From Candidatus Magasanikiibacteriota bacterium (GTDB lineage: Bacteria > Patescibacteriota > Patescibacteriia > Magasanikbacterales > UBA922): DNA of 54,625 nt. Every line of letters starts with the position of its first letter. The first letter of the stretch is position 1. Shown here piece by piece: positions 29,028 through 42,858 of this stretch. A program made the translations under genes and the position numbers. The stretch is from NCBI GenBank assembly GCA_002716765.1, contig PBBY01000004.1, forward strand, positions 1 to 54,625, given 5' to 3'. The notes beneath the pieces are model-generated. The model had not been told where the DNA came from, made no database searches, and was given only the letters and a program-made list of their open reading frames with translations.

Positions 29028-29915
29028 ATGACTCGTATCCAGTATTATATTCTTATTTGTTTTGTGGCGGTGGTTTTTTTTTCTGATACCAAACAAAGTC
29101 ATGCGATCACTATTTCCCCATTACGTCATGCTATTGTTTTAGAAAAAGGAGAAGAAAGAACTGTCTCGCTTGCGGTATATAATGAAACGGCAGAGGTTGT
29201 GACTGTTGTACCAGAAGTAGATGCGTTTTCTATTCATCCAAAAACAGGGGTTGCCCAGTTTGGGGCACCAGACAAAGCTAAAACATGGATAAGTGCGGCA
29301 CAAAAAAACCAAACCATTGTACCGGGCGACCAAAAACAATTAGACTTTCTTATTCGTGTACCAAAAGACGCAAAAGCAGAATCACACCATATTGGATTAT
29401 TTGCAACACAGCCGTCTACTTTGGGTGCGGTAACGATCGGTTCTCGAACAGGTTCGTTATTATCACTACACATTGCCGGAGAGGTAGAAGAGTCTATAGC
29501 CTTACGTGATTTTTCTGTAGAAAAAAAATTGGTTACCACACCAAAAACAACTCTGTTTCTTCATCTTAATAATGCGGGGACAATTCACCTGGTACCAACT
29601 GGCGGTATTCGCCTAATAAACAGAAAAGGAGAGATATTGGAAGATATATCGATCAACCCAGAAGAAAGTAGTGTGTTAAACGGAGAGCAATTTGTTCGTA
29701 ACTATGCCACATCTCAGCTATCTGTTAAAGATGTGGGAAAAATACGCGTACAACTATATATGAAATATGGTATTACACACCGTGAAATGAGTCATGAAAT
29801 TGCCTTTTGGTATATACCAAAAATACTTTTTTATGGCGGTATTTTTTTTGGTATTAGTATATTAATAGGTATGGTTAGTGTGTGGTATAAAAAATTATTA
29901 TACGCCAATGACTAA
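29028..29915 (+). CDS. DUF916-like membrane-anchored surface protein (WxL-interacting type)
   Basis: 295 residues: a signal peptide (about 1-26, SHA/ITISPL), two Ig-like domains (ITISPLRHAIVLEKGEERTVSLAVYN, about 26-130; and SIALRDFSVEKKLVTTPKTTLFLHLNN, about 155-240) and a C-terminal membrane helix (about 263-287, ILFYGGIFFGISILIGMVSVWY) with a short basic tail. This order matches DUF916/WxL-interacting proteins, which in Firmicutes hold WxL proteins at the envelope. Its neighbour 28353-29024 is the likely partner. The last eight bases overlap the next gene (ATGACTAA), so translation is coupled. Confidence 0.72.
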   Translation: MTRIQYYILICFVAVVFFSDTKQSHAITISPLRHAIVLEKGEERTVSLAVYNETAEVVTVVPEVDAFSIHPKTGVAQFGAPDKAKTWISAAQKNQTIVPGDQKQLDFLIRVPKDAKAESHHIGLFATQPSTLGAVTIGSRTGSLLSLHIAGEVEESIALRDFSVEKKLVTTPKTTLFLHLNNAGTIHLVPTGGIRLINRKGEILEDISINPEESSVLNGEQFVRNYATSQLSVKDVGKIRVQLYMKYGITHREMSHEIAFWYIPKILFYGGIFFGISILIGMVSVWYKKLLYAND

Positions 29916-32900
29916 ACAGAAAAATAATTCACTTGGATTTATGTATGGATTTTTTTTCTCTGTATTTTTTGGTACATTTTTTTTGGGGCAAACTGTTTTT
30001 GGTTTTGCTGTAGACGTTACAACAAGTGTGACTTATGGTTGTGGTAATGGGGTAAAAGAAGCGGGAGAAGAATGTGAAGGAAATGATTTTGGTGGAAAAA
30101 ATTGTTTTAATAGAGGATTTAATGGTGGTACATTACAATGTATTAACTGTCGTATAGATACTAGTAATTGTGAGGTTGCGCCAGGTCAGGGTGCGCCAGC
30201 TGCACCACCTCAGCCACCAGACCCAGTTTGTGGAAATGAAATAGTGGAATTCGGAGAAGTATGTGACGATGGAAATGACATAGAAACTGATGCATGTCTT
30301 TCTACTTGTGTTGCTGCAGCATGTGGTGATGGATTTATTCAGGAAGGTGTTGAAGTATGTGACGATGGAAATGACATAGAAACTGACGCATGTCTTTCTA
30401 CTTGTGTTGCTGCAGCATGTGGTGATGGATTTATTCAGGAAGGTGTTGAGGCGTGCGATGATGGGAATATTGCCAATAATGATGGGTGTTCCAATATTTG
30501 CGAAGAAGAAGCGCCTGCGGTAAATTGTGGAAATCAAGAAATTGACGAAGGAGAGGAGTGTGATGACGGGAATATACTTCCAGGAGATGGTTGTGATATT
30601 GCTTGCATTGTTGAAGTCTGTGGTAATGGTGTTGTGCAAGCTGGCGAGGATTGTGACGATGCTAATCAGGATAATACCGATGCCTGTTTAAATAATTGTA
30701 CCGCTGCTTTTTGTGGTGACGGTATTGTTCATGCAGAAGTGGAAGCGTGCGATGATGGGAATATTGAGGATGGAGACGCATGTAATGCAGAATGTGAAAT
30801 TCCAGAAGTGGCGATTTGTGGAAATGGTATACAAGAAGCCGAAGAAGCTTGTGATGATGGAAATCAAAATAATGGAGATGTATGCACCAACTTATGTAGT
30901 GTGGCGGTGTGTGGCGATGGTTTGGTTCACGAAAACGTAGAGGCCTGTGATGATGGAAATCAAAATAATGAAGATGTTTGTACGAATCAATGTGTGATTG
31001 CGGTTTGTGGTGATGGTATTGTTCGTGCAGAAACAGAAGAGTGCGACGATGGAAATAATATTAACAATGATGGGTGTTCGGCGCAATGTACTAATGAAGT
31101 GGAGCCGGTTTGTGGTGATGGTATTTTGCAATTTTTAGAAGAGTGCGACGATGGTAATAATGACGATACAGATAATTGTACCAATAATTGTGCTTTTGCA
31201 ATTTGTGGAGACACCATTATTCGTGCTGGCGTGGAACAATGCGACGATGGTAATAATGACGATACCGATGTGTGCACCAATCAATGTTTGGTTGCAATTT
31301 GTGGTGACGGATCGGTGCATGTTGGTGTGGAGCAGTGTGATGATGGAAACGTGCAAGATAACGATGGTTGTTCTGCGCAATGTGTAAATGAGGTTCAGCC
31401 AGCATGTGGTGATGGTATTGTTCAACCCCCGGAAGAGTGTGATAGTAATTTGTTTGGTGGAAATAGTTGTATTACCAAAGGGTTTGTTGGAGGAGATTTG
31501 TTGTGTGATGCTGTGTGTAGAATCAAAACAGATAATTGTTTGCCAAGAGTCTTACGTGAACAAGATCCAGAAAATCCTATTATTGCACTAGAAGAACCAT
31601 TAGAAGAACCAGAAATTCCTCGTATTGGGTTAGGAAATATTATTATTACCATTGGAAATGGAAAAATTCGTGCAGGGACACAAGAGCGTCGTATTACGAC
31701 ATTGGTTGGCGATACCATTACATTTGCTGCCGAAAACAAACTTTTCGAGGATTTTGATATTACACGTATCACTATTGTTGGTAACGGACAAGCAAAAGAA
31801 TTACGTTTTCGCGCAGATAAAAATAGATATCTTATTACACACACCGTTGACCGGGTTGGAGAAACACCGCTTCAAATGATTGTAGAATATGGCGATGGTG
31901 AATCAATTCCAACCCCTTTTGCAGTTATTGGAGAAATGCGTGGTAGTATTAGCGACGAAAATGGTAACGGAATTGTTGGTGCAACTATTACGCTTATAGA
32001 TGAAAAAACTGACAATGAATGGAATGGGCAATTATATAATCAACAAAACCCGGCCGCAACACAAGCACCAAATGGAACCTATGGATTTATTGTTCCAAAT
32101 GGAAAGTACATCATGCGTATAGAAAAAGAAGGGTTTCACACAAAAGAAACATTTACGCTTCGCATTACTGATAATATTGTACAGCAGTCATTTACTTTGG
32201 TAGCATTATTACCGCCGCTACAAGAAGATATTGCAGAAATTTTGGCACAAGATATTCCTGCGGTTGCAAAAATAGGACAAGTTGCCGAAGTAATTACCAA
32301 AAAATTAGGAGAAAATACTAAACTTGCTGCACAGGCTGTAGTAGAAACAGCGCAACTTATAGATGAAATTGCCGACGACCCATTGGTAGAAGAAATTACC
32401 GAAGAAGTTGTTGTTCCGGCTGGTGGAAGTGCTGTTACGGTTGTAATGGCACCATCACTGTGGAACATTATTTTACCATTAACACGATTTTTATTTTTAC
32501 AACCACTGCTATTATTATCCAGAAGGAAAAAACGTGAATGGGGAATGGTCTATAATAGTTTAACAAAGCTACCTATAGATTTGGCTGTCGTTCGCATTAT
32601 TGATGCAAAAACAAAAAAAGTAAAACAATCTCGGGTAACCGATGGAAAAGGAAGGTTTTTGTTTATTGCCGAACCGGGGTCATATATTTTGGAGATTGCA
32701 AAAAGTGGTTTTTCGTTCCCTTCAACTATTTTACAAAATACGAAACAAGATGGTGCATTTGCCGAGGTGTATCATGGAGAACCAATTGTGGTGACAGAAG
32801 AAGGTGTTGGTGTCACGCCAAACATCCCACTTGATCCAGCTGGTGCAGAAAAAACACCAAAAAGAATTATTTGGGAAAAGCGTATGCGCATTGTACAGCA

Positions 32901-33414
32901 TGGATTTTCTTTGTCCGGAGTATTTTTTACGTCGATCTCGGTATATGTAACACCAACACCAACTGTTTTTGCTTTTCTTGGGTTACATATACTTCTGTAT
33001 TTTGGATTTGTCCATTTTGTTAAACCAAAAAAACCAAAAGGGTGGGGAATTATTTACGATACCAATTCCAAAGAACCGCTTTCACAAGCTGTTGTTCGGT
33101 TGTTTACCAAAGAATATAATAAATTGGTTTCTACGTTTGTTACAGACAGAAAAGGACGATACGCCTTTTTGGTTGGGCCAAGTACTTATTTTTTAACCAT
33201 GCAAAAAAAGGGATATACAAACGAATCAATTGATCCAATTGTGGTAAAAGCAAAAAAAGGTGAAGAGGGTATTATTAAAACAGATGCTGCATTACAAAAA
33301 GAAAATGGTAACAATGCGTCTACAAAACCTGCAGAAGCTCCAGAAAAATTACCAGTAGTACCGACAGAGGGTGAGTTAAAAATAGAAGAAGAGTTACCGC
33401 AAGAAAAAAAGTAG
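29908..33414 (+). CDS. Giant surface protein with twelve Cys-rich DUF4215-type repeats
   Basis: The track starts at 29878; MTKQKNNSLGF (ATG 29908) gives a coupled start and a standard signal peptide, 1168 residues. After the signal come a CGNGVKEAGEEC module, twelve E-x-CDD(G/A)N-x6-D-x-C-x3-C repeats (about 100-505; myxococcal Cys-rich/DUF4215 type), a second GGNSC..GFVGG module, a beta domain, and a carboxypeptidase-regulatory-like domain (ATITLIDEKTDNEWN). Two membrane segments (near 845-870 and 1005-1040) are each followed by a further regulatory-like repeat (W-G-[MI]-[VI]-Y-[ND]). The Cys repeats probably bind calcium or form rigid stalks; the CDDGN loops are acidic. Two repeats at 30259-30450 are almost identical at DNA level. 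Confidence 0.82.
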   Translation: MTKQKNNSLGFMYGFFFSVFFGTFFLGQTVFGFAVDVTTSVTYGCGNGVKEAGEECEGNDFGGKNCFNRGFNGGTLQCINCRIDTSNCEVAPGQGAPAAPPQPPDPVCGNEIVEFGEVCDDGNDIETDACLSTCVAAACGDGFIQEGVEVCDDGNDIETDACLSTCVAAACGDGFIQEGVEACDDGNIANNDGCSNICEEEAPAVNCGNQEIDEGEECDDGNILPGDGCDIACIVEVCGNGVVQAGEDCDDANQDNTDACLNNCTAAFCGDGIVHAEVEACDDGNIEDGDACNAECEIPEVAICGNGIQEAEEACDDGNQNNGDVCTNLCSVAVCGDGLVHENVEACDDGNQNNEDVCTNQCVIAVCGDGIVRAETEECDDGNNINNDGCSAQCTNEVEPVCGDGILQFLEECDDGNNDDTDNCTNNCAFAICGDTIIRAGVEQCDDGNNDDTDVCTNQCLVAICGDGSVHVGVEQCDDGNVQDNDGCSAQCVNEVQPACGDGIVQPPEECDSNLFGGNSCITKGFVGGDLLCDAVCRIKTDNCLPRVLREQDPENPIIALEEPLEEPEIPRIGLGNIIITIGNGKIRAGTQERRITTLVGDTITFAAENKLFEDFDITRITIVGNGQAKELRFRADKNRYLITHTVDRVGETPLQMIVEYGDGESIPTPFAVIGEMRGSISDENGNGIVGATITLIDEKTDNEWNGQLYNQQNPAATQAPNGTYGFIVPNGKYIMRIEKEGFHTKETFTLRITDNIVQQSFTLVALLPPLQEDIAEILAQDIPAVAKIGQVAEVITKKLGENTKLAAQAVVETAQLIDEIADDPLVEEITEEVVVPAGGSAVTVVMAPSLWNIILPLTRFLFLQPLLLLSRRKKREWGMVYNSLTKLPIDLAVVRIIDAKTKKVKQSRVTDGKGRFLFIAEPGSYILEIAKSGFSFPSTILQNTKQDGAFAEVYHGEPIVVTEEGVGVTPNIPLDPAGAEKTPKRIIWEKRMRIVQHGFSLSGVFFTSISVYVTPTPTVFAFLGLHILLYFGFVHFVKPKKPKGWGIIYDTNSKEPLSQAVVRLFTKEYNKLVSTFVTDRKGRYAFLVGPSTYFLTMQKKGYTNESIDPIVVKAKKGEEGIIKTDAALQKENGNNASTKPAEAPEKLPVVPTEGELKIEEELPQEKK

Positions 33415-34461: not shown

Positions 34462-34490
34462 TTGACAAAAATTTGCATATATGATACGGT
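34462..34490 (+). promoter_or_regulatory. Promoter of the 186-residue orphan, TGATACGGT type
   Basis: TTGACA (34462-34467), 17 bases, TACGGT (34485-34490) with an upstream TGA. The same unusual -10 occurs before ilvE. Confidence 0.6.
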
Positions 34491-34522
34491 TTTTGTGTAC
34501 CCAATCTTTAAAGGAGGTTATT

Positions 34523-35083
34523 ATGGTACGATTAAAAAAAGTTAGTGTAGGCACAATTGTGTGGCTATATATTATTACAAAGGGGAAACCCTTCCGAGTT
34601 ACTACTGTGATATGGCGTGGGGATAAATATATTGATGCAAACTTTGGTCTGGTGTCCGAATATGTCGCAAACCAAGAAATTGAACACTTTCCTGTAACAA
34701 AGTCTGTGTCCTCTTTTAACAGGCTCATTAAAATTCTTGTCGCCGAAGGCACGCTCTCTGTCGTACGTAAAGTAAACGGTATAAGAGTAGGAAAAGTGTA
34801 CTCTTGGGAACTACCTAAACAAGAATTATTGGAGCGGCTGAAACTAGATAGAGAAAGTTGTGGCTTAGTGGATTCTTTGCTTAATAAAAAACCACAGAAA
34901 AAAGGTCCAAAAAACATTGATACACTAACACTTAATGAGCTAAATAATGAGCTTTCACAAAATGCGCAGAGAAGAGAGTTGTTAGAAGAGCGAAAAAGGG
35001 TTATTATGAGACAAATGATATTAGAAATCCTTCAGGATCAGCTTGATCTTACAGAACGCGAGGTAATTGAATATTTACGCTAA
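34523..35083 (+). CDS. Orphan cytosolic protein, 186 residues
   Basis: The track opens at 34481; AAAGGAGG five bases before ATG 34523 fixes the start (the -10 of the promoter lies inside the longer version). I do not recognise the family. The N-terminal half is beta-rich (VSVGTIVWLYIITKGKPFRVTTVIW). Residues about 58-98 could be a winged-helix-like segment (SFNRLIKILVAEGTLSVVRKVNG). The C-terminal third is helical and charged (about 133-186). A role as a small DNA- or RNA-binding regulator is possible but unproven. It has its own promoter and terminator. Confidence 0.65.
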   Translation: MVRLKKVSVGTIVWLYIITKGKPFRVTTVIWRGDKYIDANFGLVSEYVANQEIEHFPVTKSVSSFNRLIKILVAEGTLSVVRKVNGIRVGKVYSWELPKQELLERLKLDRESCGLVDSLLNKKPQKKGPKNIDTLTLNELNNELSQNAQRRELLEERKRVIMRQMILEILQDQLDLTEREVIEYLR

Positions 35084-35116: not shown

Positions 35117-35138
35117 AGCACGTAATAGTGCTTTTTTA
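35117..35138 (+). terminator. Terminator after the 186-residue orphan
   Basis: AGCAC-GTAATA-GTGCT followed by TTTTT. Confidence 0.65.
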
Positions 35139-35157: not shown

Positions 35158-35185
35158 TTGACTTTTACTCCTTTTGTGATACGAT
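35158..35185 (+). promoter_or_regulatory. Promoter of the ileS leader
   Basis: TTGACT (35158-35163), 16 bases, TACGAT (35180-35185) with TGA just before it. Transcription would start near 35192. Confidence 0.6.
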
Positions 35186-35191
35186 ATATAT

Positions 35192-35385
35192 ACAATTACA
35201 GAGACGTCATACCTGTTATCAGCAGGGAATTGCTTCTACAATACGTCGAAGAAAGAACAGTATATTATTACTTAGTAGACTCTTCCGGATAAGCCCGTAA
35301 ACGCCGTAATAAAGCGCCACGATGGAATCGAGATGGTACCGCCCAAATTTGGGTTCTCGAACTGTGTGGTTTTTTTATTTAATTC
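35192..35385 (+). promoter_or_regulatory. T-box-like leader of ileS
   Basis: TGGTACCGC at 35334-35342 is the T-box core, flanked by arms TCGAGA (35328-35333) and TCTCGA (35355-35360) as in an antiterminator helix. Its TGGT would pair with the ACCA end of uncharged tRNA-Ile. Near the 5' end a short stem (GACGT/ACGTC, 35203-35247) holds a hairpin CCTG-TTATCAG-CAGG whose seven-base loop carries ATC, an Ile codon, as specifier. The stem is much shorter than in classic Firmicutes T-boxes and recalls ultrashort stem-I forms upstream of actinobacterial ileS. A T run at 35370-35377 permits transcriptional control, but the mode is open. Confidence 0.65.
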
Positions 35386-35392
35386 TATTTCT

Positions 35393-38305
35393 ATGGCATA
35401 TAATGCACACAAAAATGAAGAAAACATTGCTGATTTTTGGGAAAAAGAAAGTATATTTCAGAAGTCTATTGAGCAGCGTTCTAAGGACAGGCCGTATGTT
35501 TTTTATGATGGACCTCCTTTTGCCACAGGTTTGCCACATTACGGACATATTGTTGGGAGTATTCTCAAGGATGCGATTTCGCGTTATGCAACAATGCAAG
35601 GGTGTCGTGTAGAAAGAAAATGGGGGTGGGATTGTCATGGTTTGCCTATTGAGAATATTGTAGAAAAAGAATTAGAAACAAAAAGTAAAAAAGATATTGA
35701 AACTCTCGGTGTTGATGTGTTTAATCAAAAGTGTCGGACAAAAATAGCAGGATTTGTTGATGGGTGGAAAAAAACAATGCGTTCACTTGGTCGTTGGGCT
35801 GATATGGAAAACGCCTACAAAACAATGGACGTTGAGTATATGGAAAGTGTTTGGTGGGTATTTAAAACGTTACACGAAAATGGGTATATTTATAAAGGGC
35901 ACAGATCAATGCATGTATGTCCACGTTGTGAGACCACACTATCTCAGCAAGAAGTTAGTGAGGGGTACAAGACAATAAAAGATATTAGTGTGACAGCAAA
36001 ATTCAAGATTACTTCTTCTACAAAAGAGATTGTCAATGAAGATGCAGATGTATATGTTCTTGCTTGGACTACAACACCATGGACACTACCGGGAAATGTA
36101 TTGCTGGCATTTGGGGAACATATTACATATTGTGTGGTAAAAAGTGATGGTGCCTATTATATTTTGGCAAAAGATTTGGTTGAAGATAATTTTGCTGAAA
36201 AAGAGTATGAAGTAATTGGAGAACATGATGGAAAAACATTTGAAGGGTTTACATATGAGCCACTTTTTCCATATTATAAAGAAACAGAGAAGGCATTTAC
36301 TACGGTTTTGGCAGATTTTGTTACTGCAGAAGATGGTACGGGGATAGTCCATATTGCGCCAGGTTTTGGTGATGATGATTACAGGCTTGCAAAAGCGTTT
36401 GGTGTTCCTTTTGTGCAGCATGTTTCAATGGGCGGTCAGTTCGTTGATACGGTGGTGGATTTTGCTGGTGTACAGGTCAAACCAATCGGAGATCATATGG
36501 CAACCGATATTCTTATGGTAAAATGGCTCGCACATAACGGAAAATTATTCTCAAAAAAGAAGTATGAACATAGCTATCCACACTGTTGGAGATGTGATAC
36601 GCCGCTTTTGAATTACGCAACAGATTCTTGGTTTGTTGCGGTAACAAAAATAAAAGCACAAGCATTAGAAACAGCAAAAAATATTTCATGGATGCCTGAA
36701 CATATAAAAGGCGGTCGTTTTGGAAAATGGCTAGAAGGTGCGAAGGACTGGTCTATTTCCCGTCAACGGTTTTGGGCATCGTGTATTCCTGTTTGGGAGT
36801 GTGAATGTAAGTGCGGTGAGCAGATTGTTATTGGTTCGATTGCTGAGCTTGAGAAACGTTCTGGTGTGGTGGTGACCGATTTACACAAAGATGTATTAGA
36901 TCCAATTACCTTTCCTTGTGGTTCTTGTGATAAAGTGATGAGGCGTGTGCCAGATGTCCTGGATTGTTGGTTTGATGCCGGGTCTATGCCTTATGCACAG
37001 GCACACTACCCCTTTAAGAATAAGGAGGAATTTGATAAAGCGTTTCCAGCAAATTTTGTTGCGGAAGGGATTGACCAAACTCGGGCATGGTTTTACTATC
37101 TTCACATTTTGTCAAACGGTGTTATGGGGAAGAATGCCGTGGATAATGTTGTGGTTAATGGTATGGTTTTGGCGGAGGACGGAAAGAAGATGTCAAAAAA
37201 ATTACAAAACTATCCTGACCCAGTAGAGGTGATGAAAAAATACGGTGCGGATGCTTTGCGCTGCTATATGCTTAGCTCTCCGGTAGTTCATGCAGAAGAT
37301 TTGCATTTTTCCGAACACGGTGTTCGTGATATGTTTAATAAAACCACAAATTCATTGGCAAATGTATTATCATTTTATATGATGTATTATGATGAGCAAA
37401 ACACTGTTTCGCACACGAACACAACACACGTTTTAGATAAGTGGGTCTTGGCACGGTTAGATGAGACAAGATTAGAGGTAGAAAAGTACTTTGAAACATA
37501 TGACCTGTCGGCTCAGATGAGAACGGTGGTTGCGTTTATCGGTGACTTATCACAATGGTATGTGCGCAGAAGTAGAGAAAGGTTTAAAGGATTAACACAT
37601 AAGGAAGATGCAGGGTTTGCACTTGCTACACTAAAACACGTATTACTTGAAACAAGTAAATTTATTGCACCATCAATGCCGTTTATTGCAGAACATATAT
37701 ATCAGGAAATGAAAAAATTAGATAATACAGAAAACAATTGTGAATCTGTACATCTTGAGTTGTGGTCAAAAAGTAACAGTGTATTAGAAAATAAAGAATT
37801 ATTAGAACAAATGAATCATGCGCGGCAAGTGGTGGAGTTGGTCTTGTCACTCAGAAAAGAAACAAAGATAAAAGTACGACAACCACTTGCGCAAATTAGT
37901 GTTTCTGGAGTAACACTTTCCAAGGATTTACACTCTATTATTTTAGAAGAAGTGAATGTGCATGATTGTGTTCAAGATGTTTCTTCCGAAGATGTTGTAA
38001 CAAAAACAGAGTATGGCATAACCGTTTCGCTCGACACTACTATTACAGAAACATTAAGAAAAGAAGGGCTACTTAGAGAAATTGTCCGTGCTATTAACCT
38101 ACTAAGAAAAGAGCAGGGATTTACTGTTGAAGATAAGGTTATGGTCGAATATTTTACAGAAGACAAGTATATTGCTGCAGTTTTTGTAGAATATAGTCAA
38201 GAATTACAAAATCAAGTACTTGCAGAAAGTGTTGTTGAGAATAAAAGTGGAGAAGTGGTGGAAATAGAAAAGATTCCTGTGTATCTTACAGTTAAGAAGG
38301 TATAA
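35393..38305 (+). CDS. ileS: Isoleucyl-tRNA synthetase, eukaryote-like (type 2)
   Basis: The track start (35333) is the ATG inside the T-box core and is not real; MAYNAHKNEENIADFW (ATG 35393) gives 970 residues. HIGH motif: FYDGPPFATGLPHYGH (about 41-56). GWDCHGLPIE follows, the editing domain contains TTPWTLPGN, and the KMSKS loop reads KKMSKKLQNYPDP. The FYDGPPFATGLPHYGH and KMSK..NYPDP wording matches the type 2 (eukaryote-like) IleRS, which in other bacteria is associated with mupirocin resistance. It charges tRNA-Ile in the cytosol. The T-box-like leader suggests induction when tRNA-Ile is uncharged. Confidence 0.95.
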   Translation: MAYNAHKNEENIADFWEKESIFQKSIEQRSKDRPYVFYDGPPFATGLPHYGHIVGSILKDAISRYATMQGCRVERKWGWDCHGLPIENIVEKELETKSKKDIETLGVDVFNQKCRTKIAGFVDGWKKTMRSLGRWADMENAYKTMDVEYMESVWWVFKTLHENGYIYKGHRSMHVCPRCETTLSQQEVSEGYKTIKDISVTAKFKITSSTKEIVNEDADVYVLAWTTTPWTLPGNVLLAFGEHITYCVVKSDGAYYILAKDLVEDNFAEKEYEVIGEHDGKTFEGFTYEPLFPYYKETEKAFTTVLADFVTAEDGTGIVHIAPGFGDDDYRLAKAFGVPFVQHVSMGGQFVDTVVDFAGVQVKPIGDHMATDILMVKWLAHNGKLFSKKKYEHSYPHCWRCDTPLLNYATDSWFVAVTKIKAQALETAKNISWMPEHIKGGRFGKWLEGAKDWSISRQRFWASCIPVWECECKCGEQIVIGSIAELEKRSGVVVTDLHKDVLDPITFPCGSCDKVMRRVPDVLDCWFDAGSMPYAQAHYPFKNKEEFDKAFPANFVAEGIDQTRAWFYYLHILSNGVMGKNAVDNVVVNGMVLAEDGKKMSKKLQNYPDPVEVMKKYGADALRCYMLSSPVVHAEDLHFSEHGVRDMFNKTTNSLANVLSFYMMYYDEQNTVSHTNTTHVLDKWVLARLDETRLEVEKYFETYDLSAQMRTVVAFIGDLSQWYVRRSRERFKGLTHKEDAGFALATLKHVLLETSKFIAPSMPFIAEHIYQEMKKLDNTENNCESVHLELWSKSNSVLENKELLEQMNHARQVVELVLSLRKETKIKVRQPLAQISVSGVTLSKDLHSIILEEVNVHDCVQDVSSEDVVTKTEYGITVSLDTTITETLRKEGLLREIVRAINLLRKEQGFTVEDKVMVEYFTEDKYIAAVFVEYSQELQNQVLAESVVENKSGEVVEIEKIPVYLTVKKV

Positions 38306-41750: not shown

Positions 41751-42788
41751 TTATAGTGGAATGTTCATTCTCCACTGTGAGAACTGTCTAAGGATCGGGT
41801 GGTCAACACCACATTGGATGTCTTCTAGGGCGTTTCGTAGTCGTTGAGTGATTTCACCAACGGTACCGTCATTATACATTACGTCTTTGTTTTTGTAACT
41901 AATTCTTCCAACCGGTGCAACGCCTGCTGCGGTCCCAGTACAAAAACACTCTTGAGCACGAAGAACGTCCGTAATTTTTAGAGGTGCTGCAGCAACGATA
42001 ATACCTAGTGCTTTGGCAATATGAATAATACTGTCTCGTGTAATGCCAGGAAGGATTGTGTCATTGAGTGGTGCTGTGTATAGCACTCCGTCTATCATGG
42101 CAAAAAAGTTTGCTGCTCCACACTCTTCAACATATTTGTTTTGTCGCGCTTCAAGATATAGTAACTCATCAAAACCTTCTTTTTTTGCCTCTAGGACATG
42201 GAGCATTCCTGGTCCGTAGTTTCCTATCGCTTTTATACCACCTGTCCCACCAGGTGCTGTGCGGTGAATGTTTTCTGGGACTTTAAGAGAGATGGGTGTG
42301 ACACCGTCTTTGAAGTACGGGCCAACAGGGCACACAAAAACAATAAATGTGTAGGACTGAGAGGGGCCAATACCTAGTTTTGCTCCAGAGCCAATCAGTA
42401 GAGCCCTAACATATAAAGATCCTTTTTCTGTGGGGGGAACGTGTTTTATGTTTTTTTGTACAACCTGTTTTACGGCTTGAGTGAATTGTTCTGTGTGGAC
42501 GCTAGGCATGCACATTCGCCTTGCGCCATTTTGAAATCGTTCTGCGTTCTGCTCAGGACGGAAAAGCGTAACATGGCCGGTCGTTGTTCTTTTTGCTTTT
42601 AATCCTTCAAATATGCCTTGTCCATAGTTTAGTGCACTGGCAGCAGGATGTAAAGAAAAATCTTCAGGAACAACAATATCAGGGTCCTGCCACTCTTGAT
42701 CGTACACTTGCACATACATGGCTTCTGTGTCTCTGTATGAGAAGTCTAGCGAATCCCAATCGTGTGGTATGGTTTTTTTGGCTATCAT
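41751..42788 (-). CDS. ilvE: Branched-chain amino acid aminotransferase
   Basis: The track starts at 42839, but AAAAGGAGGTG before ATG 42788 (MIAKKTIPHDWDS) is clearly the start, giving 345 residues. A fold-IV PLP enzyme: GQGIFEGLKAKRT (about 57-69), RMCMPS, GSGAKLGIGPS, the PLP lysine region GGIKAIGNYGPG (about 183-194), YVEECGAANFFA and the phosphate-binding GITRDSII. It interconverts Leu, Ile and Val with their 2-oxo acids. No other branched-chain biosynthesis genes are here, so it may act in salvage or degradation. Its promoter shares the rare TGATACGGT -10 with the gene at 34523. Confidence 0.94.
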   Translation of the reverse strand: MIAKKTIPHDWDSLDFSYRDTEAMYVQVYDQEWQDPDIVVPEDFSLHPAASALNYGQGIFEGLKAKRTTTGHVTLFRPEQNAERFQNGARRMCMPSVHTEQFTQAVKQVVQKNIKHVPPTEKGSLYVRALLIGSGAKLGIGPSQSYTFIVFVCPVGPYFKDGVTPISLKVPENIHRTAPGGTGGIKAIGNYGPGMLHVLEAKKEGFDELLYLEARQNKYVEECGAANFFAMIDGVLYTAPLNDTILPGITRDSIIHIAKALGIIVAAAPLKITDVLRAQECFCTGTAAGVAPVGRISYKNKDVMYNDGTVGEITQRLRNALEDIQCGVDHPILRQFSQWRMNIPL

Positions 42789-42829
42789 TGGCACCTCCTT
42801 TTTGATATATATATTGTAGCCACGTCTGT

Positions 42830-42858
42830 ACCGTATCACGGATTCGTTATTTCGTCAA
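42830..42858 (-). promoter_or_regulatory. Promoter of ilvE, TGATACGGT type
   Basis: Minus strand TTGACG (42853-42858), 17 bases, TACGGT (42830-42835) with TGA before it. The -10 is part of a small palindrome CCGT-GAT-ACGG. Confidence 0.55.

Follow-up and report, generated by a model that had tools for sequence, protein, structure and literature searches.

We conclude that a leader RNA encoded at 35202-35376 on the forward strand of the window, the whole 54,625-nucleotide stretch of DNA analysed here from an ultrasmall bacterium of the Patescibacteria (CPR), Candidatus Magasanikiibacteriota, is very probably (about 90%) a T-box riboswitch that senses tRNA-Ile and controls ileS through transcription attenuation. 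Sequence and comparison are the basis for its anatomy, its covariation, the matches of its specifier and discriminator-pairing bases, and the presence of a terminator. An earlier note had proposed a T-box with an ultrashort stem I at this place, and the proposal is borne out: the anatomy is complete, and stems I, II, A1 and A2 covary.

The leader and its gene

The features of the region are as follows.

35117-35132, + strand: hairpin resembling a terminator, 3' of the upstream gene (34481-35083)
35158-35185, + strand: sigma-70-type promoter-like site, TTGACT, 16 nt, TACGAT, with TG before the -10 (extended -10), from a pattern match
35203-35247, + strand: stem I, basal helix GACGU/ACGUC (35203-35207 with 35243-35247) plus an apical hairpin, from the MFE fold
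35212-35226, + strand: stem I apical hairpin CCUG-UUAUCAG-CAGG, 7-nt loop with ATC inside; the apical helix covaries
35218-35220, + strand: specifier AUC (Ile), next base A, complementary to the tRNA-Ile anticodon GAU
35248-35285, + strand: stem II, GAAGA/UCUUC (35248-35252 with 35281-35285) and S-turn-like AAGAA/AGUAGA, from the covariation count
35286-35304, + strand: stem IIA/B pseudoknot, CGG/CCG (35286-35288 with 35295-35297) and GC/GC (35293-35294 with 35303-35304)
35312-35327, + strand: AAGCG, stem III (CCA cga UGG, 35317-35325), AA
35328-35360, + strand: antiterminator, A1 UCGAGA/UCUCGA and A2 GCCCA/UGGGU, bulge UGGUACC at 35334-35340, from covariation and fold
35334-35342, + strand: TGGTACCGC, with flanks TCGAGA (35328-35333) and TCTCGA (35355-35360)
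35316-35376, + strand: intrinsic terminator enclosing A1/A2, GCCAC.AUGG with CUGUGUGGU (35362-35370), U-run at 35370-35376, from the fold
35393-38305, + strand: ileS, type 2 isoleucyl-tRNA synthetase, 970 aa, likely start ATG 35393, past the terminator U-run

Read from the window's sequence, all T-box parts lie in the correct order within 35202-35376. An ATC in the loop of a short 5' stem and complementary arms flanking the TGGT motif, both described in the earlier note, are confirmed within the span it gave. A1 is a perfect 6-bp helix; A2 pairs 35341-35345 with 35350-35354, and the pair at its base is the G-U that structural work describes as the amino-acid sensor (PMC7583486). The stem II S-turn was judged from sequence only, and in relatives the basal helix of stem I was recognized by eye only. 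The IIA/B element of the window is CGGAUAAGCCCGUAAACGC; its two helices are 98% and 94% paired in an alignment of 17 leaders, with small variation. The segment 35312-35327 matches the published RRRxG-stem III-AA motif (PMC7583486), as do many relatives whose stems differ in sequence, while a subset, for example L011 and L017, has no hairpin there. Immediately 3' of the antiterminator lies GUGUGG-U7, and the ileS ATG follows about 16 nt past the U-run. The folding energy of the whole window leader is ordinary (z -0.46), as may be expected of a switch, and was not counted as evidence.

The gene itself is, as had been claimed, a type 2, eukaryote-like ileS. The protein scores 877 bits against TIGR00392 (cutoff 621), and its closest solved structures are the IleRS 8c8u (1032 residues, 739 bits), the cytoplasmic IleRS 9w01 (707 bits) and 1ile (821 residues, 667 bits), all nearer than 1ffy (304 bits), a type 1 enzyme of S. 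aureus. The open reading frame list does begin ileS at an ATG inside the T-box core (35333), as the earlier note remarked; the likely start is nevertheless 35393. Of the span 35158-35392 originally assigned to the element, the T-box occupies 35202-35376, and 35158-35185 is the promoter-like site, outside the RNA. Shuffled sequences contain a mean of 1.1 such promoter patterns, which are weak evidence taken alone. Transcription is predicted to start at about 35192, just 5' of stem I, where a long stem I would not fit. With the promoter-like site and the terminator-like hairpin of the upstream gene, ileS seems to have its own start and boundary, which suggests that it is a separate transcription unit.

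Elsewhere in the window, 41751-42839 (minus strand), a few kb from ileS, encodes a class IV aminotransferase (PF01063) whose sequence may be that of a branched-chain aminotransferase; R1, the covariance model of these leaders used below, finds no T-box there. The large protein encoded at 29878-33414 (plus strand) carries DUF4215 repeats and carboxypeptidase-regulatory-like domains.

Conservation, specifier match and distribution

Relatives were fetched using the window's IleRS, the closest named one being a Candidatus Magasanikbacteria genome at 86% identity. Among upstream regions with TGGNACC, almost all carry a 5-bp A1 complement at the expected spacing, and most carry a hairpin with AUCA in the loop. 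In a sequence-only alignment of 17 diverged leaders, neither AUCA nor UGGUACC varies. The named structure pairs 96.6% of cells in this alignment, as against 34-46% with the partners shifted by 1-3 columns, and the covariation score is 0.748 as against 0.09-0.16, a control biased toward the structure because the latter was drawn with the aligned sequences in view. Two-sided changes occur in 19 of 24 pairs. By helix, compensatory change is found in all four apical pairs of stem I, all five of stem II, five of six in A1 and all four of A2, and the proportion of cells paired is 96.5% in stem II and 97.1% in both A1 and A2. On this alignment, the compensation count is not accounted for by having drawn the structure with the sequences in view. 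Retention of TGGT and of the ATC loop, together with covariance-model matches, is the reverse of what the earlier note had named as grounds for abandoning its reading.

A decayed or non-functional remnant, which the weak Rfam score might suggest, is hardly credible: every structural element is intact, identical or compensated in a same-genus relative (L003/L032), and kept across many genera. The Rfam search recommended by the earlier note did return a match to RF00230, of 30.1 bits (E 4.2e-05 over the 341 bases scanned locally), which together with the invariant motifs indicates more than chance resemblance. This match falls far short of the gathering score of 93 bits, and at gathering level a scan of the whole window returns nothing. 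A genome-wide RF00230 search missed the window's T-box and returned a chance-level place elsewhere. The same holds more widely: none of 20 sources with such leaders reaches the gathering score, and of 192 Patescibacteria genomes, 57 contain an RF00230 match at E <= 1e-4 but only 4 one above the cut-off, so that annotation at the standard threshold reports almost no such leaders.

R1 scores 117 bits on the window, which is itself in the training set. The window's copy is the sole significant R1 match in its genome (90% complete). At E <= 0.01, R1 matches 157 of 380 genomes across Patescibacteria and, within the window's order, 50 of 86. The ileS gene was searched in 33 matched genomes of this order, and in 31 of them the R1 match lies about 30-450 nt upstream of that gene. 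No match was obtained in 13 control genomes (Delongbacteria, Gemmatimonadetes, Proteobacteria, Oligoflexales, Bacteroidota and archaea); among 16 controls outside Patescibacteria, two Chloroflexi match, a phylum in which ileS T-boxes are already known (PMC2494555), and one Streptomyces does not. By these model matches, leaders of this kind are common across Patescibacteria and no isolated oddity.

The strongest functional evidence, as judged from sequence comparison, is the agreement between specifier and synthetase. Loop codons were read from R1 matches elsewhere in the phylum, and the downstream genes were named with NCBIfam. AUC precedes ileS; GUC loops precede valS (L142, L144, L147, L161, L163, L167, L170, L173, L175 and, on re-inspection, L176); AGC precedes serS (L152); and AAG precedes lysS (L159, L165, L168), where stem I is less clear. 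Non-discriminating aspS, encoding aspartate--tRNA(Asn) ligase, is preceded by AAC (L136, L157) or GAC (L150, L154, L181), and this enzyme charges both tRNAs. In L145, AAC stands upstream of a bacterial-type aspS. The CM alignment had placed stem I wrongly in L176 and L180, for which a separate hairpin search gave an upstream GUC hairpin and, tentatively, a UCC hairpin.

The bulge offers a second match. The discriminator of the tRNA-Ile(GAU) encoded in the window's genome is A, which agrees with UGGU; the gene does not include the CCA, which has to be added afterwards. Where the tRNA discriminator is G, UGGC is expected, and UGGC replaces UGGU in most leaders of non-discriminating aspS and in the serS leader L152. 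The exceptions, namely UGGC in ileS leaders L141 and L174 and in valS leader L176, UGGA before some ileS, and UGGU before the aspS of L154, count against the main reading, in that elsewhere the base is not always the expected one.

Several loci lie outside this pattern. L213 (G006:C58:1556-1724) has an AUC-type T-box before an RNA-methyltransferase-like ORF (LDLTAAPGSKTSQIA) and not before ileS, which in that genome lies at a contig start, with an assembly break possible. L214 (G040:C19:9954-10119) is a weak T-box-like leader with UGGAACC and a classical-looking terminator before a GNAT-like acetyltransferase ORF, and the T-box-like leader L162 (G324:C1:304053-304217) precedes a 395-aa ORF without a Pfam or NCBIfam family. 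The idea that Patescibacteria T-boxes are all ultrashort was dropped, as long ones are present as well: class I-like T-boxes of about 180-300 nt occur in other members (L222, L223, L224, L225, L226, L227, L229, L231), among them leaders of tyrS (L226), a sulfate adenylyltransferase gene (L222) and a trpE-like gene (L231). In genome G065 the RF00230 matches number up to 9.

The terminator and the proposed switch

The predicted terminator takes its 5' arm from 35316-35325 and leaves A1 and A2 paired inside it. The fold energy is -21.3 kcal/mol with this enclosing terminator and -13.7 kcal/mol with the CUGUGUGGU strand free; barring a shorter match within the T-box bulge, the sole strong partner of that strand is GCCAC.AUGG of the stem III region.

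The window's aptamer belongs to class III, for which translational control is the output mostly reported (PMC10482949, PMC1262725), and a translational T-box would have a downstream sequestrator hiding the ileS start, as in the actinobacterial ultrashort-stem-I ileS T-boxes. In the window, however, no Shine-Dalgarno sequence that could be hidden is evident before the ileS start at 35393, and the hairpin is followed directly by U7. A run of 4-8 U follows A1' in 49 of 50 ileS leaders, some of which have a Shine-Dalgarno sequence past the U-run. Given the U-runs and the lack of such a sequence in the window, termination control appears far more likely than translation control, and we regard the translational reading as quite improbable.

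It is rather unlikely that the switch is classical, in which case A1' would belong to the terminator and the enclosing hairpin would be an artefact of the folding program. Classical terminators do occur in six leaders (L008, L044, L048, L051, L052, L109), and the closing helix of the window is short; yet the strand before the U-run finds no good partner among the A1' or A2' stretches of the window, and the enclosing fold is found in 30 of 49 leaders. In Saccharibacteria-type leaders the 5' arm consists of the stem III loop and 3' strand (for example AAGAG-CUAAAAGAA-UCAC-UUCUUUUGG-AA), and stem III varies in sequence while its pairing is kept. When linkers of this set were paired with 3' arms, the own partner fitted far better, a fit reached in none of 20,000 permutations. 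Within the order to which the window belongs, p in the same test is about 0.03. In the window taken singly, the enclosing helix is equalled by 17% of shuffled arms, a modest advantage. Applied to all 49 leaders, classical terminators included, the duplex test is significant overall and weak for the window's order; limiting it to enclosing-type leaders, a limit chosen after the folds were seen, sharpened the result. The enclosing switch thus appears well supported for the group and moderately supported for the window's copy, with stem III as the apparent switching element.

Stem III is reported to be indispensable. An enclosing terminator without a clear stem III hairpin occurs in ileS leaders L011, L017, L020, L022, L004 and L006. 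In L016, L024, L028, L030, L072 and L077 a small hairpin and U-run directly follow A1' with little or no shared sequence; in L016 and L028 this hairpin is independent, with zero overlap.

For tRNA binding, the direction of the response and the switch at stem III, we infer the following course. AUC would be exposed in the stem I loop of the nascent RNA, and tRNA-Ile(GAU) would be held in the groove between stems I and II, as known structures suggest. The 3' ACCA of an uncharged tRNA would pair with the bulge UGGU and stabilize stem III together with A1/A2. Accommodation of uncharged tRNA probably needs stem III stacked under A1; stem III would therefore be held closed and the terminator blocked, leaving the strand beside the U-run unpaired and allowing RNA polymerase to continue into ileS. 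With charged tRNA, when isoleucine is plentiful, the bulge would remain empty, the strand just 5' of the U-run would be taken up by the stem III/linker strand, and termination would follow from the enclosing hairpin, the more stable fold. It seems somewhat probable that this represents a Patescibacteria-wide T-box subtype, in which a class III aptamer drives termination, stem III and the linker act as the switching strand, A1/A2 stay intact within the terminator, and the choice set by tRNA lies between stem III and the terminator stem, not between antiterminator and terminator.

Relation to known T-boxes

T-boxes have been described as limited to few phyla, chiefly Firmicutes (PMC2494555), and the short-stem model of TBDB was run on Actinobacteria and on sequences that the long-stem model had found (PMC7778990). 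In our sample they occur in about 40% of Patescibacteria, on several tRNA synthetases, in organisms with tiny genomes whose regulation is poorly understood. Class III T-boxes, with a short stem I whose specifier loop is apical, are mostly translational (PMC10482949), translational T-boxes are mainly actinobacterial (PMC7583486), and those of actinobacterial ileS sequester the Shine-Dalgarno sequence (PMC1262725); in the literature searched, which covers the field in part, the combination of a class III aptamer with an intrinsic terminator was not found. According to a published kinetic argument, tRNA must be bound by the time polymerase arrives at the terminator, and transcriptional T-boxes depend on a long stem I for this (PMC7583486). 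The Patescibacteria leaders seem to terminate without such a stem, and so offer a test of that argument.

The nearest likeness in aptamer is to the class III ileS T-boxes of Actinobacteria (Nocardia farcinica, Mycobacterium tuberculosis), which likewise have a short stem I without the distal module for the tRNA elbow and share with the window leader the AUC in the apical loop, the S-turn stem II, the IIA/B pseudoknot, the discriminator and the target gene. They differ in that the actinobacterial elements sequester the ribosome-binding site, whereas the window leader has an intrinsic terminator and no Shine-Dalgarno sequence, and the specifier loop is typically 7 nt here as against the 5-6 nt described for class III. 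The ileS T-boxes of Chloroflexi (the L079 and L098 genomes), weakly recognized by R1, are also followed by an intrinsic terminator; the Chloroflexi leaders L232 and L233 have a classical terminator, and the sequence 5' of the part matched by R1 is compatible with a longer stem I. With the class I transcriptional T-boxes (Bacillus subtilis tyrS type; RF00230) the window leader has in common the UGGN bulge, A1/A2, the stem III motif and an intrinsic terminator. It lacks the long class I stem I with its distal double T-loop module, its own stem I being 45 nt and adjoined upstream by the promoter-like site. Finally, the class I terminator uses the 3' strands of A1/A2, whereas that of the window uses stem III and the linker and keeps A1/A2; the enclosing terminator would then be a second wiring of the same sensor.
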